Positions 33,881 through 62,096 of a DNA stretch of 64,000 nt are shown piece by piece. Position 1 is the stretch's first letter. Every line of letters starts with the position of its first letter. Location: contig JAIVFI010000006.1 of NCBI GenBank assembly GCA_025558095.1, forward strand, positions 806,001-870,000, read 5' to 3'. Both the position numbers and the translations under genes were made by a program. The notes beneath the pieces were generated by a model. That model searched no databases and had not been told where the DNA came from. It saw only the letters and a program-made list of their open reading frames with translations. This stretch comes from Hyaloraphidium curvatum. Lineage: Eukaryota > Monoblepharomycota > Hyaloraphidiomycetes > Hyaloraphidiales > Hyaloraphidiaceae.

Positions 33881-35748
33881 TCAGAACATCTTCTTCCACC
33901 TCGCGATCCCAAAGGCCACGCAGCCCACGACTACGCACAGCATGCAGAAACCAAAGAACGGCCAGTAGCTCTCGTCCGTTGGGTCGCCGTCGGTTTGCCA
34001 GGGAACGCGGACTGTGGGTCAAGACACAGCACCAGTCCGTCAGCCCGTGACCAGGCTCACCGAGAGTCAATCCGACCCACCGTTGACGGACCACAGGCCC
34101 AGGATCAGGTTCAGCGGCACGATCACGGATGCGATCAGCGTCAGCTTCGCCGACATGTTGTTGCTCTCGCTGCTCGCTTCCTGGATCTCGATGTTGACCC
34201 TGTTCAAGCACGTGGCATCCGCGTGAACTTAGAGCAGGATCCACGTCGCGCAATGTCGCACCTCGCGAGGTAGGTCCCGTGCGCCCGGGCCAGCGTCTGC
34301 TCCTGGAACTGCAGGTTTGAGAGAAGCCCCGCCACCGAGTCGCCGATGTCCGAAAGGTACAGCGCCAGCTCCGAGATCCCCCTCTCCGAGTAGAACGGGA
34401 GCAGCCTCCTCCGCGCGTGCTTGAGCGCCGACGGCTTCCCCGCCAGCAGGCGCAGCAGCGACATGACCCTCTTCTTGGTGCGGATGATACTCCTCAGCAG
34501 CTCCTCCTGGCTCTGCCGGCGCAGCTCCACCACGAGGTCGTCGATCGACGTCGACTCGGCGTCCGTGGCCTGCACTTGCGGCGCGAACCCGTCGCACACG
34601 GCGTGCAGCAGCGCGTAGGCGAGCCAGTGCGTGCCCGTGGACATGCCGTAGCCTTCGAGAGAGGAGAGGCGCGAGTAGACCTGCGAGATCACGGGGAGCG
34701 GGCGCGAGTGGAAGGTGAGGATCCACTGCGGGCCAGCCGCGGCGCCCGACCGGGTCCCGGCGCGGTCAGCGCCGACGACGGCGTGCAGGCTGACGCCGCG
34801 AAGCTCGTCCTCGGGTTCTTGTGCCGTTTCGTCGGGGGGTTCCAGGGCACGCACAAGGATCAGATAGTAGCCCGGGAAGCTCTCGAACTTTTCGCGGCCC
34901 TCGGTGGCCCCTGAGCCTGAGCGGATGCGCCCCTCGATGATGTCCTCGGCGGTGAGCGGGTGCAGCCCAAAGACGCGGCTGAACATGAACATCTCCGAGT
35001 CGGTGACGTTGAGGATGTCGATCCAGAACCATGGCTGCGCGGCGAGCAGGGCGGGCGAGAAGCTGAAGGTCGTCGAGGTCTCGGGCGAGCTCAGGTTGGG
35101 GGAGTGCAGGACGAAGCGGATGCGAGGGAGGCCCGGCCGGCGCTGGAACTTGGTCTTGGCGCGAAAGTAGCTCACGTCCGTGGGGCTCTTGCTCGAGTCG
35201 TCCGGCGACGGCAGCCCGCCTTTCAGGTTACTCCTCTGCCACTGCTCCAGGAACTCCAAGTCCAGGCCTTTGCGTGTGTGGGCCTCCTGTTCGCGCTTCT
35301 TGGCCCTTTCCTTGTCGATGGCCATGAACACGGCCTGGCGGAGCCGGCTTCCAGGCTGCCCGCCCTGTCCCGCATCCGATGAAAACCGGCGCGGGTGGTC
35401 CCTGTAGTTTGCCAGCATCTCGTCGGCTTCGGCGGTGCCAATGACCGATTCCCCGTCGCTGTCGTCGTCCTCCGAGTCTCCCGAGCCAAACGACGTGCTC
35501 TTCTCGATGTTGCCCACCACCGTCGCCCGCCGCACCGGGCCGTCGCCCACATTTACGGAGCGGTGGCGGTGCAGGATGAACTGGTCGTGCAGCGCGTGCG
35601 GGGTGCTCCCGGGCTCGCGCGTGCCGAGGAGGAAGTCCTCGGCGTCCGACAATTCCGGCGGCGCCGGTTCCATCTCGACCACCGTCGCGTCCGCGGGCGC
35701 GCCGCCGGGCTCGATGTACATCGTTTGCAGGTGCGTATCTGAAGCCAT
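33881..35748 (-). CDS. CorA/Mnr2-like Mg2+ transporter with SVN instead of GMN
   Basis: Three exons: 35748..34262, 34199..34081 and 34011..33881, 578 residues. A long acidic cytosolic N-domain contains the shared blocks FVLHSPNL, FSPALLAAQPWFWIDI, FGLHPLTAEDIIEGRIRS and a long stalk helix ending LQFQEQTLARAHGTYLARVNIEIQEASSESN. The last two exons give TM1 (LIASVIVPLNLILGLW) and TM2 (FFGFCMLCVVVGCVAFGIA) with the loop SVNVRVPWQTDGDP. In CorA, Alr and Mnr2 proteins the TM1 end is GMN, needed for Mg2+ selectivity; here codons 34090..34082 spell S-V-N. The downstream paralogue at 40691 keeps GMN in the same place. So transport selectivity or function may differ. Confidence 0.87.
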
Positions 35749-36011
35749 CGCGATTGTCTGGGTGTCTCTTTGATTCCGGACGAGGCGAGTCACCGGTGGG
35801 CAAAGCCAGGCACGGATTTTCCGCACGGTCGACGTGTCCCTTTCACCCTTCCCGAACAGACAAGATGGATCGAATAGCTGCGTAGAAACACGGATGGATT
35901 TCAAGTGTCTGCGAGGTCGTCTCTGCCGGCCTTTGATGCCCGCCGCAGTCAAAGTTCGCGGGCCTGGCTTCCACCTGCCGCAAAGTACCCTTCGCATCTT
36001 CCACCACTACG

Positions 36012-38411: not shown

Positions 38412-38548
38412 GAGCTTGAGAGACGATGAGATTAGACGACTCTTCCTCCTCGACCTCTGTTTGCGGGTGCAGGCGTGACTTTAGTCCCATCGCTCCAGGC
38501 ACCTCCCTTCGCCCCCTCGACGCCGGTCGCCCGAGCTGGGGACCCGCC

Positions 38549-40627
38549 ATGGCGGGCGGCGCCGACGGCCGGCTCATCCTGGCCATCGACCTCGACTACT
38601 TCTACGCGGCGTGCGAGATCATCGCGGACCCGACCCTGACGCGCGACATGCCCGTCGGCGTGCAGCAGAAGCAGATCATCGTGACGTGCAACTACCCCGC
38701 ACGCGAACGGGGCGTCAAGAAGCTGCAGCTGCTGAAGGACTCGCTGGCCGCCTGCCCGGACCTGGTCGTGCGGGACGGGTCCGACATCCAGAAGTACCGG
38801 CGCGCAAGCACGCGAATCTGGGAGGTCCTGGCGCGTGCCATCGGGGTCTGGGGCACCATTTGGCAAGAGGCTGGCCTACCGGAGCCGCGGTTGGTGACCT
38901 CCGAGGTCAGCTGGCCGGAAGACGAACCGCCTTTGGACCCGGCTGTTGTCGACGCGCTCGCAACCAAGCTGGAACGGCTGGGCCTCGACGAGTTCTTTCT
39001 CGACGTAACTGCTCTCGTGGACCATCATTTGAGCGAGGCCGAGCTGGTGGCAGAGGACGAAGAGCAGGGCGAAGGCTGCTGGTTTGCTCTTCCTCTGTTT
39101 CGCGATCCCGTGAACCCGTCCTTCGTCTCCACCGGCTTTCGCTACCACCCGTTTAACCTTCCGAGGGACACCCAGCTGATTGGCGACTCCTCATCTGGAC
39201 TTCCGCGTCGGCTCCTTGCCGCTGCCCACCTCGCTCGGCACCTACGAGAGCTCCTCAGAAAGCTCACGCGCTTCACCACCTCGTGCGGCATCTCCTCCTC
39301 GAAGGTGCTTGCCAAGCTCGCCAGCGACGTACGTAAACCGGACGGGCAGTCGATCCTGCCCGACGCAGCGAGGGAGGGGTTCATTTCGACGATTGAGATC
39401 GGACGTTTCCAAGGAATTGGTTGGAAGATGCGCCGGGACCTGGAGGAGTGGCTGGGTGGCCGCTCGGTGAATGCCGATGGGACTCATAACGCGTCCGTAC
39501 CCTGGCCGGCACCGGAAGACGTGTCAAAGAAGCGAAAGCGTCCCGTCGGCGTGGAGGTGGATATTGACGAGCTTCCCGACGACGCCCCATATCTGGAAGG
39601 CGGCGACATGGACTCGAACGGGTTCGACGCCGGGGACGATGCCCAAATGGCCTTGCTGAATCCGGCCAACTGGCATTCTGACGGCTCGCCTCGCCTCCCC
39701 ACGCACTCCAAGCTGACTCCCTCGCACCTGCTCCCCATCCTCACGAAGTCGAATCCCCCTCCCTCCCTCACGGCCCTCTTGGACCGCCATCCCTCCTTGC
39801 TCCCGCTGCTGAACGGGATCGACGAGACCCCGGTCAAGATGACCACGCTCCCCATCTCGATCTCGATAGAAGACTCGTTCCGCTGCCATGGCACCGCCGA
39901 CGCGTGGCGTCGCCTGGCGGATCTGGTGACCTGGCTCATCGAACGGCTAGAGGAGGAGGAGATGACGGAACCGAACTCGCCCGAGGGGCTCAAGAGGAAG
40001 TGGCGGCGCTTCCCGCGCACGCTGCGGCTTTCCCTGCGGAGGCGGTCCCTGCCCTACCACGCCTCCCGCGAATCCAAGACCATCGCGACGCCATACTCCC
40101 TCCTGGACACCGCCACGGACATGGACGCCCGCGTTGCCAAGACGGTTCGCGCGATCGAGGGCCCTTTCCGCGCGCTGCTCCTCGCCCATCCCTACCCCGG
40201 CTCGACGGAAGCGGAACGGCTGGATGCGGCGGCCAAGGACATGGTCATACTCAACCTCGCTGTGACGGGCTTCCAGAAGGAGTGGGCGCAGGGAAGCGCG
40301 GACATTGGCAAGTTCCTCGTGCGGAAGGAGCCCGGCGCCGCGGAGCCAGCACCCGAGGGCGGGCAGCAGCAGGCCAAGGACGCCCCGCCCGCGAAGCCGT
40401 TCTTTGCAGACCGCCCCGAGGCCGTGCCGAAGGATAAGCCGGTACCGGCGGCGGTGCTGGAGAAGCTCGGGATCGACCCGAAGACGTTCGCGGAGCTGCC
40501 GCCCGAGATTCGCGCCGAGATCCTCCGCAACGGCACGCCGCAGGACGGGACCGCGCGGCCGCTGCCACCTCCTCGGCCCGAGAAGAGGAAAGGAGGGCCG
40601 ATGGACCGGTTCCTGCGCCAAGGTTGA
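38549..40627 (+). CDS. POLI: Y-family DNA polymerase iota
   Basis: Single exon, 692 residues from the ATG at 38549. Catalytic motifs: ILAIDLDYFYAACE (metal ligands D14 and D16), GVQQKQIIVTCNYPARERGVKKLQ and RDGSDIQKYR (fingers), and GLDEFFLDVTALVD with the second acidic pair. TTCGISSSKVLAKLASDVRKPDGQ is the thumb/HhH entry and GIGWKMRRDLEEWLG the helix-hairpin-helix. The little-finger part follows (WRRFPRTLRLSLRRR). The C-terminus has IDPKTFAELPPEIRAEIL, a good ubiquitin-binding motif (UBM), then a basic end MDRFLRQG that may act in PCNA contact. The QQKxxIVTCNYxAR spacing and the UBM favour polymerase iota over eta or kappa. Role: nuclear translesion synthesis. Confidence 0.87.
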   Translation: MAGGADGRLILAIDLDYFYAACEIIADPTLTRDMPVGVQQKQIIVTCNYPARERGVKKLQLLKDSLAACPDLVVRDGSDIQKYRRASTRIWEVLARAIGVWGTIWQEAGLPEPRLVTSEVSWPEDEPPLDPAVVDALATKLERLGLDEFFLDVTALVDHHLSEAELVAEDEEQGEGCWFALPLFRDPVNPSFVSTGFRYHPFNLPRDTQLIGDSSSGLPRRLLAAAHLARHLRELLRKLTRFTTSCGISSSKVLAKLASDVRKPDGQSILPDAAREGFISTIEIGRFQGIGWKMRRDLEEWLGGRSVNADGTHNASVPWPAPEDVSKKRKRPVGVEVDIDELPDDAPYLEGGDMDSNGFDAGDDAQMALLNPANWHSDGSPRLPTHSKLTPSHLLPILTKSNPPPSLTALLDRHPSLLPLLNGIDETPVKMTTLPISISIEDSFRCHGTADAWRRLADLVTWLIERLEEEEMTEPNSPEGLKRKWRRFPRTLRLSLRRRSLPYHASRESKTIATPYSLLDTATDMDARVAKTVRAIEGPFRALLLAHPYPGSTEAERLDAAAKDMVILNLAVTGFQKEWAQGSADIGKFLVRKEPGAAEPAPEGGQQQAKDAPPAKPFFADRPEAVPKDKPVPAAVLEKLGIDPKTFAELPPEIRAEILRNGTPQDGTARPLPPPRPEKRKGGPMDRFLRQG

Positions 40628-40690: not shown

Positions 40691-42627
40691 TCAGAGCATC
40701 CCCTTGAGGTACGCCCACGTGAGCACCGTGACGATGATGGCCGCCACGATGCAGGCGAAGGTGATGAAGGGGATCAGGTTGTCCTGGTCCGGGTTTCCGT
40801 CCGACTGCCAGGGAACCCGCATGTTCATGCCTGGCGGAGCGGCGTGAGACCAGGGCGCGCAACAGAGGCAACCAGGTGAAACCTACCCCACATGCCGGTC
40901 AGCAGATTGAACGGCACGATGATACTGGCGAGCAACGTGACTGCGGGAAAGCTCAGCACGAGGATTGACGTGCTCAGCCGCAATGAGGTGCCCACCTCGA
41001 TTCGTCATGTCGTTCGAGTTGGCCGTCGACGCCGAGATCTCGATTTGGATCCTGAAAGGCATGGTTACCTGGGGATGTTAGTCGACGAGACTATTGGAGC
41101 CCACCTTGCCAGGTACGAGTTGTGCGCCCGAGCCAACGTCTGCTCCTGGAATTGAAGGTTGCTCATCATGCCCGTAACGTTGTCCCCGACGTCCGACAGG
41201 TACAGCGCCAGCTCCGAGATCCCGAGTTCGTTGAACCGGCTCTGCAGCCTCCGCTTCATGCTCTTCAGGGTCACGGGCTTGCCCGACAGCAGCCGCATCA
41301 GCCCCATCACCCGCTTCTTGCTCTCGTTGATCCGCGCCACCATCTCCTCCTGGCTCTCCTTGCGCAGCATCCCCACGAGCTCCTCGATGCTCGCGGCCTC
41401 CATCTCGGTCGACCGCACCTGCGGCGCGAACCCGTCGCAGACGGCGTCCAGCAGCGCGTAGCAGATCCAGTCCGGGCCCGCCGACATGTCGTACGTCTGC
41501 AGCATCTGGTGCCGCCTGTGCACGGCGGCGACGGCGGGGAGCGGGCGGCTGTGGAAGGAGAGGATCCACGGCGGGGCCGATTTGCTGCTCCCCATGGAGA
41601 CGGCGATGTTGAGGTTCAGCCCGCGGATCTCGTCCGCGTCCTCGCCGTCCTCGTCGTCCATGGGGTCGATGGCCCGAAAGAGCACGAAGAAGTAGCCCGG
41701 GTAGAGCTGCAGCTTCTCCCGGCCCTCGTAGCCAAAGTCGCCCGAGCGGATCCTGCCCTCGATGATGTCCTCGGCCGTGAGCGGGTGCAGGCCAAACACC
41801 TTGGAGAACATGACCATCTCCGAGTCGGTCACGTCCAGCACGTCGATCCAGAACCACGGCTGGGCCGCGAGCAGGGCGGGGGAGAAGCTGAAGTTGGGGG
41901 AGTGGACGGGGTTCGCGAGGTCCGGGGAGTGGAGGACGAAGCGCGTGACCTGCGGCACGCCGTTGAGTTCATATGACGAGGAGGTGGAGCCGGACTGCAG
42001 GAGCAGGCAAGTCAGACGGGGCCAAGCCGGCGCCAACGTTGGTTCCGTCACCTTGAAGGGGCCCGAGATGCCGTTGGAATCCTTCTTCTCCGCGAACCTG
42101 ACAGCCGACTCCTGCCACTTGGCCAAAAACTCCAAATCCAGCCCGCCCGTCTCGATGTGTTTCGGAGAGTCTTTTGGCTTGCCGCCCGTCAACGAAGCCC
42201 GGGGCTCCCTTATCCGCTCCGCGGGAACCACGTCGTCCCCGTCGTCCAGGTCCAGCGAGTCCAGATCCCCCTCCTCGTCGCTCTCGTGACCGGCGTCGTC
42301 CATGTAGTCGTAGCCGGGCAGGCTCCCGACCACAGACCGCCGCCTGCCGCGGACGTTTGCCGCCGTCCGCACCGGCGACACCGGCGACACCAGCGGCGGG
42401 CCGAGGCCGCCATCGCCCTCGCCGTCCATTCCCTGTTGCCGCATGAGCAGGAAAAAGTCCGAGGTCGGGCCCTGCGCCTCCGGGGTGCCGAGCAGGTTGC
42501 GCGGCGACATGGGCACCATGTTGGGCGACGCCGGCCCGAGGCCCGTGCTGCTCGCCGTCCGCGTGGGGAGCAGCGGCGACGGCGGCGCAGCATTGGCCTC
42601 CAAACGCGCGGATCCGGAGGCCGACAT
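40691..42627 (-). CDS. CorA/Mnr2-like Mg2+ transporter with canonical GMN
   Basis: Four exons: 42627..41105, 41051..40996, 40940..40887 and 40830..40691, 590 residues; introns of 53, 55 and 56 nt (GTGGGC, GTGGGC, GTAGGT). The cytosolic domain is closely related to the paralogue at 33881 (FSPALLAAQPWFWIDVLDVTDSEM, FGLHPLTAEDIIEGRIRSG, LQFQEQTLARAHNSYLAR). Splicing three small exons gives IQIEISASTANSNDMTN, TM1 LLASIIVPFNLLTGMWGMN and MRVPWQSDGNPDQDN, then TM2 FITFACIVAAIIVTVLTWAYL. The GMN straddles the last intron (G from the split codon, then ATG AAC). The protein should be a vacuolar or plasma-membrane Mg2+ channel/transporter. Compared with its paralogue it has one extra intron between the stalk and TM1. 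Confidence 0.87.
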
Positions 42628-43023
42628 GGCGTCCCGAAGGGCCCGGGGATCCGCGAGAAATCGAGCTTCTGCGGGTGGCGGAGCACGTGGACAGGCCACG
42701 ACGCCGAGTCGTCAACACCGACGATCTCCCGTGAAAGCTCCTTCCTGCTACTCTACAGGAGATGCAATGATAGTGCGGGCGCTAACTGTCGAAGATTCCT
42801 GGGAGAATGATGGGGAAAAGCTCGACCAACCGTCGACTTCGCGGAAGCGACGACCTCGGACTTGACGGGGCACGATGCGAGGTATCGGGAACCGTAGATG
42901 CTCAAGCGACCTTGGTATCTGACTAGCAAATGCAGTAAGTGCTATACATCTCGGCGCTGTGAAGCGCAAGAACCCCGCTACATGCTCCCTGGTCACACCG
43001 ATCTAGCGAAGCCTGCTCGCCGC
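42628..43023. other. Intergenic, CorA promoter side
   Basis: About 396 bases, more AT-rich than the flanking genes, upstream of the second CorA gene and downstream of the DUF4360 gene. No coding exon recognised. Confidence 0.4.
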
Positions 43024-48332: not shown

Positions 48333-49754
48333 TCATGCTCCATGCCCGTTCGCCGAGCCCGCGAGCCCCTCCGCGATCCCATCGATGACCGGCAGCACCG
48401 CCCGCACGTCCTCCTCCGTGGTCCTGTAGTTGACGAAGCACACCCGCATGCACGTCGCCCCGTCCACCACTGCGGGGGCGAGGAACACCCTCCCGTCCAC
48501 CTGAACCGCTGTCGCCAGGCGGGCGTTGAACGAATCGACGTCGCCGCTGCCTGCGCATATGTGGCGGAAGCAGATGGTGGAGAGCTGCGGCTCGTGCAAC
48601 AGCTCGAAGGACGGATGCGCGCGCACGGAATCGGCAAACAGCCTCGCGTTGTCGAGGGTGCGGTCGATCCATCGCCTGTACTGGTCGGCACCGTACAACC
48701 TTAAGGCCAGCCACAGCTTGAGTGCGCGGAAGGGCCGCGAGTACTCGAGCGTGCGGTCCACGGCGTTGACGGTGTCGGGCTTGTGCAGCATGTACTTCTC
48801 GTCGTGGGCGAATGCGCGGAGGAGGGAGGACGCGTCGCGGACCATGACGAGGCTGCAGCTCTTTTGCAGGCCCATCCACTTGTGCAGGTCCACGGTGACG
48901 GAGTCGGCGCGGTCGAGCCCGCGGAAGAGGGGAGCGGCGCGCTTGGTGGCAGCTGCTGGCAGGCCGTAGGCGCCGTCGACGTGCAGCCAGACCCCGAACT
49001 CGGCGCACACGTCGGCGATGGCGTTCAGCGGGTCGACGGCGCCGGTGAGGGTGGTGCCCGACGTAGCGATCACGGCGACCGGAGTGATCCCGGAGGCCAC
49101 GTCTCTCGCGAGAGCTTTCTTCAGCTTCGCGACGTCCATGCGGCGGGAGCCGTCGATCGGGATGCGGCGCACGGCGTTACGTCCAAGGCCAGCGGTCTCG
49201 ACAGCGCGAACGTTCGAGTGGTGGGCCTCGTCAGAGCAGTACACGGCGGCCTTTGAGCCTCCGACACCGTCAATCCGCGATCCCGGAATCGCCCGTTCCC
49301 TCGCCGCGAGCACGGCGGTCAGGTTCGACGTCTGCCCGCCGCTTGTAAAGTGCCCGTCGGCCGCGGGGTACCCGATGAACTCGGCCATCCACCGCACGGC
49401 CTGCGCGTCGAGCTTCTCGGCGGTGCCCGCGGCGGTGGCGAGGTTCACGTCGTACACGGCCCCCAGCGCTGCGGCGAGCACGCCGGCCTCGAGCCCCGAG
49501 GAGCCGATGTACGCCAAATAGAGCGGGCGCGACGGCGACACCGACGCCTCGAGCGCGGCCACCGCGTCGCGCAAGGCCGCGTGGCTGTCCCCCGGCGCCT
49601 CCGGCAATGGGTCCGAGAAGTGCGCGACCAGCGCTCCTTCGGGCGTCGGCTCGGCCGGCCGCGGGTGGTTGAACGACGCCCACGCGCCCTCAATGTAGCG
49701 CTCGAGCTCATCGAGGAGCGTTGCACGACCGTCCAAGTGCTCGCTCGTCGCCAT
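48333..49754 (-). CDS. PLP-dependent group II amino-acid decarboxylase-like enzyme
   Basis: Single exon, 473 residues. Motifs: PLYLAYIGSSG, the cofactor-phosphate region GHFTSGGQTSNLTAVLAAR, SDEAHHSNVRAVETAGLG with the stacking His, ATSGTTLTGAVDPLNAIADVC, HVDGAYGLPAAATK with the PLP-binding Asp, and the Schiff-base lysine in TVDLHKWMGLQKSC. The family includes aromatic L-amino-acid, histidine and glutamate decarboxylases, plus aldehyde-forming relatives. The order and spacing fit the DDC/tyrosine-decarboxylase branch; substrate is not assignable. Cytosolic, no targeting signal. The 3' end is 41 bases from the convergent GH30 gene. Confidence 0.88.
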   Translation of the reverse strand: MATSEHLDGRATLLDELERYIEGAWASFNHPRPAEPTPEGALVAHFSDPLPEAPGDSHAALRDAVAALEASVSPSRPLYLAYIGSSGLEAGVLAAALGAVYDVNLATAAGTAEKLDAQAVRWMAEFIGYPAADGHFTSGGQTSNLTAVLAARERAIPGSRIDGVGGSKAAVYCSDEAHHSNVRAVETAGLGRNAVRRIPIDGSRRMDVAKLKKALARDVASGITPVAVIATSGTTLTGAVDPLNAIADVCAEFGVWLHVDGAYGLPAAATKRAAPLFRGLDRADSVTVDLHKWMGLQKSCSLVMVRDASSLLRAFAHDEKYMLHKPDTVNAVDRTLEYSRPFRALKLWLALRLYGADQYRRWIDRTLDNARLFADSVRAHPSFELLHEPQLSTICFRHICAGSGDVDSFNARLATAVQVDGRVFLAPAVVDGATCMRVCFVNYRTTEEDVRAVLPVIDGIAEGLAGSANGHGA

Positions 49755-50213: not shown

Positions 50214-51500
50214 ATGTTGGCCTTCCTGTCCCGCCCGGGCGGCGTCAAGGACAACCCGCAGCCGCTGCTCCCCGCGCCGGTTAGCGCGGAAACACGCCGC
50301 CGCCGCCGCGTCCGACCCGCGTTTGTCGCGTTCCTCGTGCTCTCCTTTTTCCTGGCGACGGTATACTACCGCTCGATGGAGTCCCCGTTGCCGGTGGACG
50401 TCGCGGACAACGCGTCGGCCCCCGCCCGACTGGACCCGGAGCTCGCCAAGTACCCGGTGGACTACCGCGCCCACGTGTTCTATTACTCGTGGTACGGCAA
50501 CCCCGAGAACAACGGCAAGTGGGTACACTGGAACCACCGCGTGCTGGTGGACAACGGCACGTCCTACGAGCCGCCCGGCGCCATCGGCTCGACCTTCTGG
50601 CCCGCGCTGGGGCCCTACTCGTCGACGTCGCCTTCCACCGTGAAGGAGCACTTTCGCGCGATCAGGAAGGCGGGGATCGGGACGGTGTGCCTGACGTGGT
50701 GGGGCCGCGGCGAGTCGGACGAGAACGGGGAGAGGGGCATGACGGACGCCGTGCTCCCGCTGCTGTTCCGCACGGCCAAGGAAACCGGGCTGCGGATCTC
50801 GTTCCACGTGGAGCCGTACCCGGGGCGGACCGCCAAGTCGGTCGAGCAGGACGTGGCTGACCTGCTGTCCCGGTTCGCGGAATGGGGCAGCGTGCTGGAG
50901 CCCGTGTTCTTTGTCTACGACAGCTACCTCATCTCCAAGGAGAACTGGGCGGCGGTGCTCGCGCCGGGCACCCCGCTCCGCCGCCACCCGCGGAAACCGG
51001 TGCTCCTCGGCCTCGTGGTGAACCAGCCGGACCTCGCAGCCATCGAGCAGGCCGGGTGGGACGGCGCCTACACCTACTTCGCCTCCCACACCTTTGTTTG
51101 GGGCTCCAACCCCCAGAACTGGGCCGCCATCGCCTCCTGGGCCTCCCGCGCGGGCCGCATCTTCGTGCCCAGCGTCGGACCGGGGTACGACGACGAGCGC
51201 GTCAGGCCGTGGAACTCGCGCAACACGCGGCCGCGCGAGGGCGGGGCGTACTACGACCGCGGGTGGGAGGCGGTGCTTGCCCTGGACCCGCTGCCCAAGG
51301 TGGTCTCGGTGACGTCGTGGAACGAGTGGCACGAGGGGACGCAGATCGAGCCGGCGGTGCCGCACGTGGGGGGGAACGGGTACAGGTACGAGGACTACGA
51401 GAAGGACGGGGACGGGAAGGGGGAGGCAGGGGAGGTGTACCTGCGGAGGACGAGGAAGTGGATCGAAAAGTGGAGCAGGGCGGTCGGGCCAGCGAGCTAG
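50214..51500 (+). CDS. MANEA: GH99 glycoprotein endo-alpha-1,2-mannosidase
   Basis: Single exon, 428 residues. Basic cytosolic N-terminus, then one TM segment (PAFVAFLVLSFFLATVYY) as in a Golgi type II enzyme. The catalytic domain opens VDYRAHVFYYSWYGNPENNGKW; it has GKWVHWNHRVL, IGTVCLTWWGRGESDENG, SFHVEPYPGRT with a catalytic Glu, FVYDSYLI, TFVWGSNPQNW and SWNEWHEGTQIEPA with the second active-site Glu pair. This is the complete GH99 pattern. The animal enzyme clips Glc1-3Man from Man8-9 N-glycans in the Golgi, bypassing ER glucosidases. GH99 is rare or absent in many Dikarya, so it is informative about lineage. Confidence 0.9.
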   Translation: MLAFLSRPGGVKDNPQPLLPAPVSAETRRRRRVRPAFVAFLVLSFFLATVYYRSMESPLPVDVADNASAPARLDPELAKYPVDYRAHVFYYSWYGNPENNGKWVHWNHRVLVDNGTSYEPPGAIGSTFWPALGPYSSTSPSTVKEHFRAIRKAGIGTVCLTWWGRGESDENGERGMTDAVLPLLFRTAKETGLRISFHVEPYPGRTAKSVEQDVADLLSRFAEWGSVLEPVFFVYDSYLISKENWAAVLAPGTPLRRHPRKPVLLGLVVNQPDLAAIEQAGWDGAYTYFASHTFVWGSNPQNWAAIASWASRAGRIFVPSVGPGYDDERVRPWNSRNTRPREGGAYYDRGWEAVLALDPLPKVVSVTSWNEWHEGTQIEPAVPHVGGNGYRYEDYEKDGDGKGEAGEVYLRRTRKWIEKWSRAVGPAS

Positions 51501-54586: not shown

Positions 54587-56885
54587 CTAATGCGTATGCG
54601 ACTTCTCGGCCTCCGGCGGCGCGCTCCTCGGCGACGGATCCGCCGCGACCGGCGACGGCTCCGTCATCACTGGGGACCCCAGCTGCAGCCCCGACGCCAT
54701 CGACCCCGACGACATCGACCGCCCCACCACGATCCCAGATCCGCCGTACGACCCCGCCCGGTTCACCGCCAGGAAATCCGGGTGGAGCCCCCTCGCCTCC
54801 TCCGCCGCGATGACCGCATGCCCGTGCGGCACCGCGATCTCGATCCCGTCCACCCGCACGATCGACGCCGGCTTCCTCCCGCGCACCCGCGGGCTGAGGT
54901 TCCCCGACGCCCCGCGCATGCCGTCGATCGCCCCCGACGGCGCGCGGAGGCTCCCCGACGCCATCCGCGCGACGTCCGGGGACAGCGAGAACGAAATGGC
55001 GCCGCTGGCCACCCGCGACAGGTCCCCGCTGGCCATCCCCGTTGGATCGGCGGCGGAAAGCGCGCTCGCGGCACGCAGCAGGGCTTCCCGCCGGGCGAGA
55101 TCCTCCATCTCCTCCCTCGCCTTGGCCAGGTCCTCGTCCAGGCTCCTCCGGTCCATCTGCTCCCTCTCCCCCTCCCCTGCCTCGCCCTCGGCCCGCTCAT
55201 CCCCAATCACGTGGATCTTGAGCGCGCGGAACACCCTGTCCGTCGTGCTGATGACGAAATCGTGCGCCTTCCTCCTGAAGCTCCCGGGCTTGCCGATGTC
55301 GATCTGGCCCGCGAGGTACTCCCCCGTCGCCTCCAGCTTCTCCCTCCCGTAGGCGGACTTTTCGAGCTGCGTCCGCACCGAGTACCTTTTCCCGACGTAG
55401 TACGCCATCAGCCAGAGGTTCGCGACGAGGAGCAGCGCAATGAGCAGGCCGCAGGCCAACCAGAGCCACTCGAACGTGCCCTCGGGGAGCTGCACGAGGA
55501 TGGCGATGTTGAAGAGGATCCAGAAAGGGAGGATAAAGCGGCGGCAGAACATGTCCAGCTCGTGGGCTGCGGGGCCGCGTGAGCGGGGCAGGGCCGGCAG
55601 GGGCGCGGGGATCGACCCACCGACGATGTGGTTGTTCTCCCGCTGGACGAGGTGGTGGATGATGGCGACCTCGAGGAGGGAGAAGAAGGCGACGATGAAG
55701 GAGATGAAGACGTACCAGTCGACTTGGGTCTGCGGCGCGGGTGAGCACAGGCTTGGACCTCGAACCGGACGCACGTACCGCATAGTTGACGAGAGGCAAG
55801 CCCGCCGTCACGGAGTTGTAGAAGCTGATGATGGTGAGCACGAGCGTGATGCACAGCCCCAGCCGCTCGGGCACGGCCTCGACGCTGAACCAGTAGCTGA
55901 CGGCGGTCAGGGCGACGAGCAGCCCCAGCGGGAGGAAGCTCTTGAGGTAGTACGATCCCGTCTTGCGAGACATGCGGATGTCGAAGAGGAGCATCTCGAA
56001 CGCCGGCACACCCTCGCGCGCCTCGTAGCGGATCTTGTCCGTGGTGTACGAGAGGTAGTCCCACGTGACGGACGAGAACATGGCCGCGTTGATGCGCGGG
56101 AACACGGGCTCGGACCGCCACTCGAGCGCGAGCTCGAGTTCATTGTAGCTGTAGCTCGTCACGGGCAGCTGCAGCGTCTGCGAGTCGAAGGGAAACTGCG
56201 CCAGCTCGAACTGGTTCCGCAGCTCGACGCGGAACTGCCGCGACCAGAATATGTCGCCCGTGTAGGGGGTCAGCTTGACGACCTCGTTGAGCATCTCGCC
56301 GCCGACTTCGGTGCCGAAGTAGATGTCCGGGGACCAGATGTCGTGCGTGGGGCCCTGTCCGTTGCCCAGGCTCGTCGAGCCCTGGTAGCGCCAGTCCGAG
56401 CCATTGGAGGGCGGGATGTCCTCCTGGGTCACGCGCAGCCGGGGGTCGTTCCAGTACAGGCGGAGGAACACGTCGATGTTGAAGGTCGAGGCGACGGGGT
56501 CTATAGAGTAGAGGCGATTGACGCGCAGCTGGGCCCGCACCAGCACGGGCGGGCCGAGGAATCCGGGCCGCGTCATTGCGTCGTACCCGGTGCCCTCGCC
56601 CACGGTGTTGGAGACCAGGACTTGGGTCGCATTGTCCGCGGAGAACCCTTCGAAGAGCCGCGGCGCGAGCCGGCGGCCGTCCGCGGCATCCCCGCAGTTT
56701 TGAGGCTCCGGCCGGGTCGGGTCGATCGCCGTCACTTTCAGAGAGCGTGGCCGGTGGCCCCTGGAGCCCGGCTGGCCGGCCAGCAGCGGGGCGGAAGTGG
56801 CCGACCGGGCAGCGTCCCCGGGCGTCCCCAGCGCCGCCAGCACCGCGAGCAGCAGCGCGGCCGCGGCGGTGGCGAGTCCGCGCAT
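54587..56885 (-). CDS. Pentameric ligand-gated ion channel subunit (Pro-loop type), long C-tail
   Basis: Two exons, 56885..55779 and 55729..54587, 749 residues; intron 49 nt. Signal peptide (LATAAAALLLAVLAALG), then a ligand-binding domain with VFLRLYWNDPRL, DIWSPDIYFGTE (loop A) and the signature loop FELAQFPFDSQTLQLP, which has the central FPFD but no flanking cysteines. Hydrophobic segments: M1 FLPLGLLVALTAVSYWFSV; M2 PERLGLCITLVLTIISFYNS with Glu at -1' and Arg at 0', as in cation channels; M3 WYVFISFIVAFFSLLEVAII; M4 RRFILPFWILFNIAILV; then a fifth, FEWLWLACGLLIALLLVANL. A cytosolic-looking tail of about 240 residues follows, with a coiled-coil-like stretch and Ser/Gly-rich end. Head-to-head with its paralogue. 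Confidence 0.88.
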
Positions 56886-57089
56886 CGTCCTCAACAGAGT
56901 ATTATGTTTTCCGGGCGGGAGACGGCGGCAGTCAGGTGTCGGCCGCGGGCTCCAAGGTGCGTCACGCCCGCCATCCCGAAATCAGGGACGCGCAATGGCA
57001 TCCTCCGTCGACGCCTCCGAGCACCTGCGGTCCCGCATCTGAGCTTTCTGAGTTCCCGCTGAGTGACTGCCCACCGGCCGGCGCCCGGA
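56886..57089. promoter_or_regulatory. Divergent promoter region of the channel pair
   Basis: 204 bases between the ATGs of the two channel genes. A stretch agtattatg close to the minus-strand gene is the only AT-rich patch. Shared regulation is inferred from spacing; it would fit co-assembly of the two subunits. Confidence 0.4.
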
Positions 57090-58687
57090 ATGGTGTCGCG
57101 GCAGTGTCTCCCGGCCGCGGGTTTCCTTGCCGCCCTCGCCCTTCTCGGGGTGGCGGTTCTGCCCCGCCCCGTCTCCGCGGTCGTGGACGGGTGGGCGGCC
57201 GAGAATGCTACGGCACGCATCTTCGCGGACATCGCCGGGGCCGGCTACGACGCCCGCACCCGACCTGGGTTCTCGCGCGCACCGACAAACATCTCGGCGC
57301 AGTTCAGGCTCAACAGCCTGTTTGCCGTGGACCCCGTGGCGACCAGCTTCACCCTGGACGTCGGGCTGCTGCTGCAGTGGACCGACCCGCGGCTGCTCCT
57401 CGACGTGCCGGGCTCGTACCCGCTCCCGCCGACGCAGGACATCCGCGTGGTGGGCTCCGTGGACCTGGGCAACGGCCATGGACCCCCGCACTTTGTCTGG
57501 ACCCCGGACGTCTACTTCGAGAACCAGATCTCCCGCACCGTGCTCTCGGAGATCGCCAAGTTCAACCCCGCCACGGGCGGCGTGCTCCTCCGCCGGCACT
57601 TCCTCGTCGAGCTCAAGGGCGACTTTGACTTCCACTCGTACCCGTTCGACAGGCAGTGGCTGCCCGTGTGGCTCACGCCGTGGTCGTACAACTCGGACGA
57701 GGTCACGATGTACTGGGCGCCCAGCCCAGTGTGGCCGGTGGTCAACGGATCGACGTTCAAGCACACCGTCTGGGACTTTGAGACCTACACCATCGAGCGC
57801 GAGGTGTTCTACTCGCGGGAAAACCTGCCCCCGTACGACCGGCTCAAGATGAACATCCTCATCTCGCGGCGGTCGACTTCCTACATCATCAAGGTCATCC
57901 TGCCCATCATCCTGCTCGTCTCCCTGACGGCGGTCAACTTCTGGCTGTCCGTCGACGCCGTCACGGACCGGCTCGCGCTCGTCATCACCCTCATCCTCAC
58001 CATCGTGTCCTTCTACAACTCGGTCTCGCAGGAGCTGCCCTTGGTCAACTACCCCGTGGGTCCCGACGCGCTTTACCCAGATACTGCGCTCACCCGGCCC
58101 CGTTCCAGACGACGGTCGACTACTACGTCGTCGCCGCCTTCCTGGTCGTCTTCCTCTCCCTCATCGAGGTCGCCACCGTGCACCACCACGTGCAGCGCGA
58201 GGGCGACGTCGTCCTCGCCACCGAGCTCGACTACTTCTCCCGCAGGACGATGCTCCCCGTGTGGGCCGCGTTCCAGCTCGTCCTCGTGCAGACGGGGCAG
58301 TGGCTCGGGATTTTGACTGGGGTGATCATCTTTTCGATCATCATATTCAATGCATGGATCATGAAGTACCGCATCGTGCGGCGTCGCCAGCCCCGGGGCG
58401 GGGGCGGCCCGCCACCGTGGCCCGCGTGGGTTGAGCGTCTGGGCAAGGCGACGGATGCGGGGTACGCGTTCTTGGGGATGAAGCCGCCCGTGAGCGACGA
58501 GGAGAGCGCGGTGCGGGTGCTGCGGGAGCAGGCGGACGCGATCAGGGTGCGGGTGGAGGAGGCGGAGAGGAGGGCGGCGGGGTGGGATGGGTTGGATGCG
58601 GTGAGGGTGGACGATGCGGGGTGGGTGTCTGGTGCGGAAGGGGAAGGTGGCGGTCGAGACCGGGGGCTGTGGGACGAGAAGGGGTAG
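57090..58687 (+). CDS. Pentameric ligand-gated ion channel subunit (Pro-loop type)
   Basis: Two exons, 57090..58055 and 58109..58687, 514 residues; intron GTGGGT...TTCCAG, 53 nt, at the same position and phase as in the paralogue (after the NY-Pro/Ala that follows M2). Signal peptide (AGFLAALALLGVAVLPRPVSA). Ligand-binding domain with GLLLQWTDPRL, FVWTPDVYFENQ and the loop GDFDFHSYPFDRQWLP, again without the two cysteines. M1 IIKVILPIILLVSLTAVNFW; M2 TDRLALVITLILTIVSFYNS with Asp at -1' and Arg at 0'; M3 YYVVAAFLVVFLSLIEVATV; M4 RRTMLPVWAAFQLVLVQ; then a fifth hydrophobic segment WLGILTGVIIFSIIIFNAWI and a ~115-residue polar tail. Probably a cation channel of the plasma membrane; ligand unknown. 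Confidence 0.88.
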
Positions 58688-59887: not shown

Positions 59888-62096
59888 TCACAAGTTATCT
59901 AAGATCCCCTTCAGCTCGTCTGCGACGTCCCCGAACGACGGCCTCGTAGCGGCATCCATCGCCCAGCACCTCTGCATCAGCGCCCACGTGGCATCCGGGG
60001 TCCCGCGCGGCCGCGGGGGCCTGAAAGGAGGGTCGTTTTGCAGCCGCGCACCGAGCGCCTGAAGGTCAATTTGCCGCAGGGCGGGAATCCACATCCCCTC
60101 GTCCTGGATCTCGTCCCAGAGGGGGATGTCGCCCTCGGAAAGGAGCTCCCACATGGTCATTGCGAAGGCGTACACGTCCGTGGCTGTACCCGGTTTCGCC
60201 CGGGCGGAGAACACTGTGCAGCGAAGCACGCAGGTCAGCAGACGCTAGAGTCCCTACGCGTGCATGGGGACAGACTTTCTGGCGCCATATAGTTCGGCGT
60301 TCCCCCACCGCGGTCCGTGGACTGCAGCGCCGCGGTCGTCCGTATCTTGGACATGCCGAAGTCGGAGACCTTGGCGACGCCGTTCGCGTCCACGAGGATG
60401 TTGCCGCCCTTGAGGTCCAGATGCAGGATCGGCGTCGGCCTCGAATGGAGGTGGTTCATCCCGAGCGCGACCTGAAAGAGGAGGTGGTGCACCACGCGTG
60501 GCTCGTATGCCTTTGGCCGCAGCTTGTCGAGGTAATCCGTGGCGGTGCCACCGGCCATGAAAAGCGTGACGAGGCAAAGGGGCTCGCGGCACCATCCCAT
60601 GAGGGGCAAAACTGTGCGTGAGGCGCGGTGGTTCAATCTAGGATGGTTGCAAACGAGCAACAGCCGATCTCACCGTTCTCGTGGTACGGCAGCCGGGACC
60701 ACAGCTCCATCTCCTGCTCGAGCCCCGCGATGGCATTTTCGAGCTGCCTGCCCTTGAGGTTCGAGCCGCGGATCATCTTGATCGCGACCTTGGTATACTT
60801 CTGGTACGTCCCTTCGATCACCGTGCCGAAGCCGCCCTGGCCGAGATAGCGCCCCTGCTCGAGGTGCTTGCCTTCGATTTCGTAGCTGCTCTTGGAGCTT
60901 CGTTGCTTGTCTGCGGGAGGGGAAGGCTCCGTCCGGGATCGCGGCGCGATAGCGGGGTCGTACACGCTGTCCCCGCGCGCCTGCTTGGCCATCTCCTGTG
61001 CCTCGGCGATTTTGCGCTCGGCTTCCTGCTCCCGCAATTTGACCTCTTCCAGGCGTTGTGCGAGCTCGGCCTCGCGCTCCCGGGCCTGCCGATCCCGGGC
61101 TTCGTTCTCGAGCTGCTGCTGCTTCCGGAGGGCTTCCGCCTCGCCGGCTTCCCGCTGTCGTTGCCGCGTGGCCTGCTGTTCGGCTTCGATGATCCTCCGC
61201 CGCACGGCCTCTGCGGCCCGTTGCCGCTCCGACTCCCGCAAACGCTCCGCCTCCCGCAAACGCTCGACCTCCAGTAGTAGCTCGGCCTCCCGCGCTCGCT
61301 CCGCGTCTCCGCGGCGCTCGGCCTCGAGTTCCCTCTGCTTCTGCAGTGCCCTTTCCTTCCTTCCCGGATCTTTGAGGGTATCCTTGATTTGTTCGAGCAG
61401 GATAAAGGAGACTTGGTTGTCCGTAGCAAAGGCAAGGGGGTGGGTTTCTCCAGGAAACTTCAGGTCGAGATTGGTCAGGAAAGGATTGAGTTCGACCGCG
61501 GAAAGGAGGGCACGGGCGCCCTCGTCCCCGATCGAGTTGTTCCACAGCTGCAGCTCCCTCAGCACAGTGTTCCACTTCAGCATCTCGGCGAGCGCGCGGG
61601 CGCCGTCGTCCCCGATGGAGTTGCGGTGCAGGTCCAGGTTGGTCAGCGCCAAGTTGGCCTTCAGTGCCTCTGCTAGCGCGCGGGCTCCCTCGTTCCCGAT
61701 GTGGTTGTTGCTCAGGTCCAGAGTGTCCAGCGCCGAGTTCCCCTTCAGCGCCTCGGCCAGCGCGCGAACACCGTCGTCGCCAATGGAATTGTTTCGCAGC
61801 TTCAGTGCTGTAATTGACGCGTGCTCTTTCAGCGCCTCCGCAAGCGCGATGGCCTCCATGTCGCCGAGGGACTCTCCGCAGGCGCTGAAGTCCCACCCCA
61901 GCCCCGCGAGCCATGGGGACCGGTACTTCGCATGGCCCGCGAGCCGTGCGCGCCAGTACTCCGCATCGCCCTTTGTCGGCTCGGCGGCCCCTAGCGCCGG
62001 CGGTGGGGGGGAGGGTTGCGCAGAGGCCTGCTGCGGGGGCGGCCGCGCATCGCTGTCCTCCTTCCCCCCCCCGCCGATGCCGAAGAGCTTCTTCAT
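59888..62096 (-). CDS. LRR - coiled coil - TKL-type protein kinase
   Basis: Three exons: 62096..60674, 60611..60276 and 60213..59888, 694 residues; introns 62 and 62 nt. Residues ~70-230 hold four to five ribonuclease-inhibitor-type LRRs (LRNNSIGDDGVRALAEALKG units), then a ~150-residue Glu/Arg coiled coil (REAERLRESERQRAAEA). The kinase domain starts LGQGGFGTVIEGTY, with catalytic Lys in VAIKMI. Splicing gives YHENVLPLMGWC, LVTLFMAGGTATDYL, the catalytic loop ILHLDLKGGNILVD (HLD for HRD), SDFGMSKI and, across intron 2, YMAPEMFSARAKPGTATDVYAFAMTMWELL. The C-lobe ends with CWAMDAATRPSFGDVADEL, typical of tyrosine-kinase-like kinases. The Asp is kept, so activity is possible. Confidence 0.87.

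Follow-up and report, generated by a model that had tools for sequence, protein, structure and literature searches.

The animal GlyR and GABA-A receptors, which are anionic Cys-loop members of the pentameric ligand-gated ion channels (pLGICs), are by both sequence and fold the best solved relatives of the protein family described here. Channels without the Cys-loop cysteines include the bacterial ELIC and GLIC and the Cys-less pLGICs of eukaryotic protists (Jaiteh et al. 2016, PMC4795631); that survey records no pLGICs in Fungi and no known biological role for any pLGIC of a unicellular organism. Merenyi et al. 2023 (PMC10406608) describe channels and receptors that were lost during fungal evolution. 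The present family comes from Hyaloraphidium curvatum, which is placed taxonomically in Fungi, Monoblepharomycota, and is represented by a head-to-head gene pair, genes A and B, in a 64,000 nt stretch of its genome (positions 806,001 to 870,000 of contig JAIVFI010000006.1, assembly GCA_025558095.1; hereafter the window). To our knowledge, no pLGIC with more than four helices per subunit and no pLGIC system in Fungi have been described before. No publication on the H. curvatum pLGIC family and no report of a pLGIC with a fifth transmembrane helix were found in the open literature, outside which most subscription papers lie. Six H. curvatum records are already labelled as neurotransmitter-gated ion-channel proteins; the existence of some copies is thus on record, and their biology is not.

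Like GlyR and GABA-A, the family has loop D F-L-R and a loop E Ser in A-type members, a −2′ Pro in eight of nine members and the M4 motif. Unlike these receptors, with which identity is about 20–26%, it lacks the Cys-loop cysteines, has Glu or Asp rather than Ala at −1′, has a short M3–M4 loop and carries a probable extra hydrophobic helix and a tail after M4. The missing cysteines are shared with ELIC and GLIC and with the Cys-less pLGICs of protists. We consider it rather probable that A and B encode different subunits of one surface pLGIC of H. curvatum, with a fifth helix (M5), A/B co-assembly and a cation pore.

A head-to-head pair of pLGIC genes

The original prediction was of two pLGIC genes in head-to-head arrangement, with a profile search named as the test. 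PF02931 matched gene A with 77.9 bits and gene B with 67.8 bits (cut-off 26), and PF02932 matched them with 62.3 and 59.3 bits (cut-off 28.1). The scores of both proteins lie above the cut-offs and the match is therefore far beyond chance, confirming the pair. The gap between the two ATG codons was re-read as 204 bp, in agreement with the spacing and coordinates first given. In window coordinates, gene A extends from its ATG at 56885 to its stop at 54587 (minus strand), and gene B from its ATG at 57090 to its stop at 58687 (plus strand). The features are:

54587..56885, minus strand: gene A, A-type pLGIC subunit, 731 amino acids (Pfam matches, splice model, fold match)
56885-55779, 55729-55621 and 55566-54587, minus strand: exons of gene A (splice model)
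55730..55778, minus strand: gene A intron 1, 49 nt, GT-AG, in the M2/M3 interval (splice model)
55567..55620, minus strand: gene A intron 2, 54 nt, in frame, GTGGGT...CCGCAG (junction matches paralogues)
55493..55566, minus strand: gene A M4, approximate (M4 motif alignment and helix in predicted model)
55358..55471, minus strand: gene A predicted extra helix M5, approximate (model helix 456–493 in 749-residue numbering, hydropathy 2.42)
56886..57089, no strand: ATG-to-ATG gap, 204 bp, presumed shared promoter region
57090..58687, plus strand: gene B, B-type pLGIC subunit, 514 amino acids (Pfam matches, splice model)
57090-58055 and 58109-58687, plus strand: exons of gene B (splice model)
58056..58108, plus strand: gene B intron, 53 nt, GT-AG, in the M2/M3 interval (splice model)
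58235..58291, plus strand: gene B M4, approximate (M4 motif alignment)
58304..58360, plus strand: gene B predicted extra helix M5, approximate (hydropathy 2.32; the predicted models cover gene A and the paralogue C6b)

Gene A had initially been read with a single intron and a product of 749 amino acids. This had to be revised, as a second, in-frame intron is present; its removal produces the junction NHIVAHELD, in agreement with the paralogues. The deposited 749-residue model (P0006) retains intron 2 as protein, and this stretch has a predicted local distance difference test score (pLDDT) of <50 in the structural model. The introns kept were those backed by paralogue alignment; the variable ends are prone to spurious introns, and the alignment rows for C6a, C1m, C1p, C37m, C37p, C39 and C4 (paralogues named after their contigs in the H. 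curvatum genome) had their ends trimmed.

The intron that follows LPLVNYA in gene A and LPLVNYP in gene B is at a place common to both genes and absent from their closest kin, C37m and C37p, whose introns sit elsewhere. Gene conversion or an old intron loss is a possible explanation. Among the database records, P0006, P0009, P0010, P0013 and the window protein P0001 retain an intron, lose the frame after M2 or are split. Owing to such faulty records, surveys may miss the H. curvatum receptors.

Most of the motifs first proposed for the two proteins were borne out. The N-termini of A and B are hydrophobic, as expected of signal peptides, and the loop A motif W-x-P-D reads W-S/T-P-D. The FPFD loop is present in gene A; gene B reads YPFD. 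Both proteins have the Pro of the x-P-F-D motif, the 0′ Arg and the 9′ Leu of pLGICs, and the predicted fold of gene A and of C6b is a β-sandwich followed by M1–M4. The two cysteines that bracket the 13-residue loop in animal-type receptors are missing from all nine family members, A and B included, as had been noted for the pair. In M2, each of the nine has Leu at 9′, and positions −2′, −1′ and 0′ read P-E-R in all but B, which has T-D-R. The acidic −1′ residue and 0′ Arg of the original prediction are therefore present (Glu in A, Asp in B), and the anion-selective motif P-A-R is found in none of the nine. Glu in eight members and Asp in B predict a cation-selective pore, the pore motif being the whole basis for this.

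The acidic −1′ and basic 0′ residues are shared with nAChR and with its protist Cys-loop relatives (P0014–P0016), as is the loop B Trp of gene B. Unlike the family, P0014–P0016 keep the Cys-loop cysteines, and they group with nAChR (100/99). Neither ELIC nor GLIC is the best solved match of B, of C6b or of the family profile, although one best match is an ELIC/GABA-A chimera. The loop B sequence P-F-S-Y-N of C6b is also that of the part of this chimera taken to be ELIC.

The family within and outside the genome

Over the genome contigs, PF02931 gave nine matches, all above the cut-off, and PF02932 gave ten, eight of them above it; gene counts from this search are lower bounds. One family of at least nine genes was found, comprising the window pair, divergent pairs on C37 (C37m and C37p) and C1 (C1m and C1p), a tandem pair on C6 (C6a and C6b) and a lone gene on C39. 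C4 carries, at about 70000–71200 (L021:1450-2697), a tenth pLGIC gene that belongs to a different lineage. It reaches the PF02932 cut-off alone, has no reported hydrophobic signal-like N-terminus, and has as its best solved match GLIC, a bacterial proton-gated channel (E 8.5e-15).

The nine-paralogue profile, scored only against the 7998 candidates with the best word sharing, returned 18 proteins. Eight are in records named Hyaloraphidium curvatum, and the environmental proteins P0007 (64% identity), P0008 (70%), P0011 and P0012 are further members of the family; no relative from any other named fungus was returned among the scored candidates. A search with one protein as query brought back the window's own protein alone. 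Pattern scans gave 61 stretches in GTDB genomes and 29 in IMG/VR, none of which was confirmed as a relative; the scans used two short patterns each, perhaps covered no records of the host genome, and are weak for distant relatives.

In a tree of 22 rows, from which P0012 and P0013 were left out, a branch set the 12 family rows apart from all others (100/98, and 100% among 200 bootstrap trees). Within the family, B grouped with C37p (100/100), A with P0008 (98/97), with C37m beside them in a position that was not exactly fixed, and C1m with C1p and C39 (100/100). The deep branching order was weak, long branches were flagged and the deep position of the family was not fixed (83/83); the tree did not decide whether GlyR or nAChR is the closer kin.

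A non-fungal contaminant had been named as a refutation of the original prediction, and the contig was judged not to be one. The family is spread over four H. curvatum contigs of 0.49–1.6 Mb and its introns are short. Chitin synthase (PF01644) is matched at three genome loci, and a genome search for the chlorophyll a/b-binding family PF00504 gave no match. The EF-1alpha of the genome has an insertion after PWFKGW, which we take to be an opisthokont mark. A horizontal acquisition of the family from a eukaryote outside Fungi, or contamination of the contigs, is in our view unlikely; in either case the receptors would not be a set inherited within Fungi. The lack of another named fungus in the profile result and the unfixed deep position in the tree both favour this explanation. 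That the nine genes are distributed over four contigs and have short introns speaks against contamination, and a recent transfer fits poorly with environmental relatives at 64 and 70% identity that group with the family, with an identity of only 20–26% to the solved animal receptors, and with the lack of a confirmed relative in the GTDB and IMG/VR scans. An ancient transfer of the family stays conceivable.

A probable fifth membrane helix

The helices M1–M4 of the original prediction are as in GABA-A and GlyR; what had been overlooked is the further hydrophobic segment after M4. This segment, M5, is present in all nine paralogues, with a hydropathy of 2.23–2.74 vs 1.31–1.74 for M4, and in the three environmental relatives whose sequences extend to this region (P0007, P0008 and P0012). 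The protist-like, Cys-loop-bearing P0015 and P0016 stop shortly after M4. The alignments behind the predicted models omit P0001 and P0009, whose ends run on through introns; in these models M5 forms a helix at residues 393–430 of C6b and 456–493 of gene A (749-residue model). These observations make a fifth membrane helix probable for this Cys-less family. We infer that M5 re-crosses the membrane, which would place the C-terminal tail in the cytosol. Tails of A, C37m (P0013) and P0008 contain a motif close to V/I-D/N-G-I-E-I/V.

The alternative is that the proteins have four membrane helices, with ‘M4’ lying on the surface or re-entrant, ‘M5’ acting as the working M4, and the tail outside the cell or ending in some other way. 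We regard this as distinctly improbable for the family, given that M4 aligns by motif with M4 of GlyR and GABA-A, that both models superpose on GABA-A and GlyR chains to the end of M4 and leave M5 beyond the aligned range, and that the 15 residues after M5 carry a net positive charge in all nine paralogues. Several points nevertheless weigh against a fifth helix. M5 is more hydrophobic than M4 in all nine paralogues, and the hydropathy of M4 is <1.5 in four of them (B, C37m, C37p and C1p), which makes a four-helix protein with M5 as its last span conceivable, most of all for B. The net charge after M5 does not exceed +1 in P0007 and is 0 in P0008. The confidence of M5 is moderate (block pLDDT 58–76 in C6b and 51–75 in A, the two proteins modelled).

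A search with the M4–M5–tail region alone returned three proteins among 638 candidates. As it missed the known carriers P0003, P0006 and P0007, it is uninformative on absence elsewhere.

Subunit types and divergent pairs

The original prediction also suggested that the divergent genes encode two subunits of one receptor. This proposal has gained a second example: as in the window, the C37 pair consists of an A-type and a B-type gene placed head to head, with a gap of 207 bp vs 204 bp (the 207 bp depend on our choice of start codon for C37p, which no record confirms). Comparison of 1016 open reading frames (ORFs) of at least 80 amino acids, covering flanks of ∼5–10 kb and the rest of the window, revealed no gene common to the window and the C37 locus besides the receptors. 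The second A-type/B-type pair favours an A/B heteromer.

It is also conceivable, if somewhat unlikely, that A and B each form their own homomer and that the head-to-head layout is a functionless leftover of an inverted duplication. Here the C1 divergent pair (308 bp gap) is relevant, as both its genes are of one type and divergence alone does not therefore equate to A plus B. The three divergent gaps have no shared promoter sequence scoring above shuffles. These two results count against co-assembly of A and B, and homomers would also suit the tandem arrangement of C6a and C6b and the single C39. On the other side, both A-type/B-type pairs have been kept, with gaps of nearly the same size, while the compared neighbours differ, and the B-type has lost the Arg of loop D and the Ser of loop E, which the A-type retains.

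The candidate ligand site

We take the relevant GlyR positions to be F63 and R65 in loop D, Ser129 in loop E, and Tyr202 and F207 in loop C. Loop D reads F-L-R in A, C37m and P0008, R-L-R in C6a, C6b, P0007 and P0011, G-L-L in B and E-L-T in C37p; in C1m, C39 and C1p the Arg is replaced by Lys or Leu. The Ser129 position is Ser in A, C37m, C6a, C6b and C1p, Thr in C37p, Arg in B, and Ala in C1m and C39. An aromatic residue is retained in loop B of all nine members (Trp in B). At the F207 position in loop C there is Phe or Tyr in A, B, C37m, C37p, C6a and C6b, and His in C1m, C1p and C39.

These residues hint at a site for a ligand of the amino acid or amine type, with the complementary face on the A-type subunit. 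Two observations detract from this: the GlyR loop B Glu that precedes the aromatic is not retained in the family, and none of the nine has an aromatic residue at the Tyr202 position, in a loop that aligns poorly. With the GlyR loop C Tyr and loop B Glu both lost, the assignment of a ligand class is weak.

Other genes in the window

A gene for a pyridoxal phosphate-dependent amino acid decarboxylase is located at window positions 48333–49754 on the minus strand, ∼5 kb from the receptors. Among solved proteins it comes closest to the decarboxylases of DOPA, of diaminobutyrate and of the desferrioxamine pathway, and no NCBIfam cut-off was reached. The enzyme was considered as a possible maker of the ligand and rejected, since PF00282 matches occur on eight contigs and proximity therefore means little.

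The window also contains a domain of glycosyl hydrolase family 99 with a strong score of 346 bits at 50214–51500 on the plus strand, two CorA-type magnesium transporter genes at 34204–35997 and 41065–42699, both on the minus strand, with an impB/mucB/samB-type polymerase gene between them (38426–40627), and a leucine-rich repeat ORF with a weak kinase-domain start at 60633–62096 on the minus strand. Just downstream of the last, the ORFs at 59891–60669 are similar to an ORF close to the tandem receptor genes C6a and C6b. A segmental duplication was considered and rejected: with matches from the receptor genes' own ends set aside, the only cross-locus matches >60 bits were from these two ORFs to the one near C6.

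Discussion

If A and B are two kinds of subunit of one receptor, they would be expressed jointly across the shared 204-bp region and would join in one pentamer. A small ligand bearing an amino or carboxylate group may dock at the subunit interfaces, where the A-type, with its loop D F-L-R and loop E Ser, would provide the complementary face and the B-type, with its loop B Trp, mainly the principal face. Binding would then open a cation-permeable pore. M5 would span the membrane once more and leave the tail in the cytosol, where the tails could couple the channel to intracellular partners. A broader reading is of a fungal five-helix branch of pLGICs in which M5 and a long tail replace a long M3–M4 loop, and in which an obligate A/B heteromer has been kept as a divergent pair through duplication; we give this about an even chance.

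The ten pLGIC genes in one fungus remove the statement ‘none in Fungi’ for at least one lineage, and H. curvatum provides a system in which the biological role of unicellular pLGICs can be tested. As fungi belong to the opisthokonts together with animals, the family bears on whether the animal neurotransmitter receptors have their origin in an older opisthokont set. The fifth helix and cytosolic tail, if true, would mean that the pLGIC scaffold tolerates an altered topology after M4, the lipid-facing helix.
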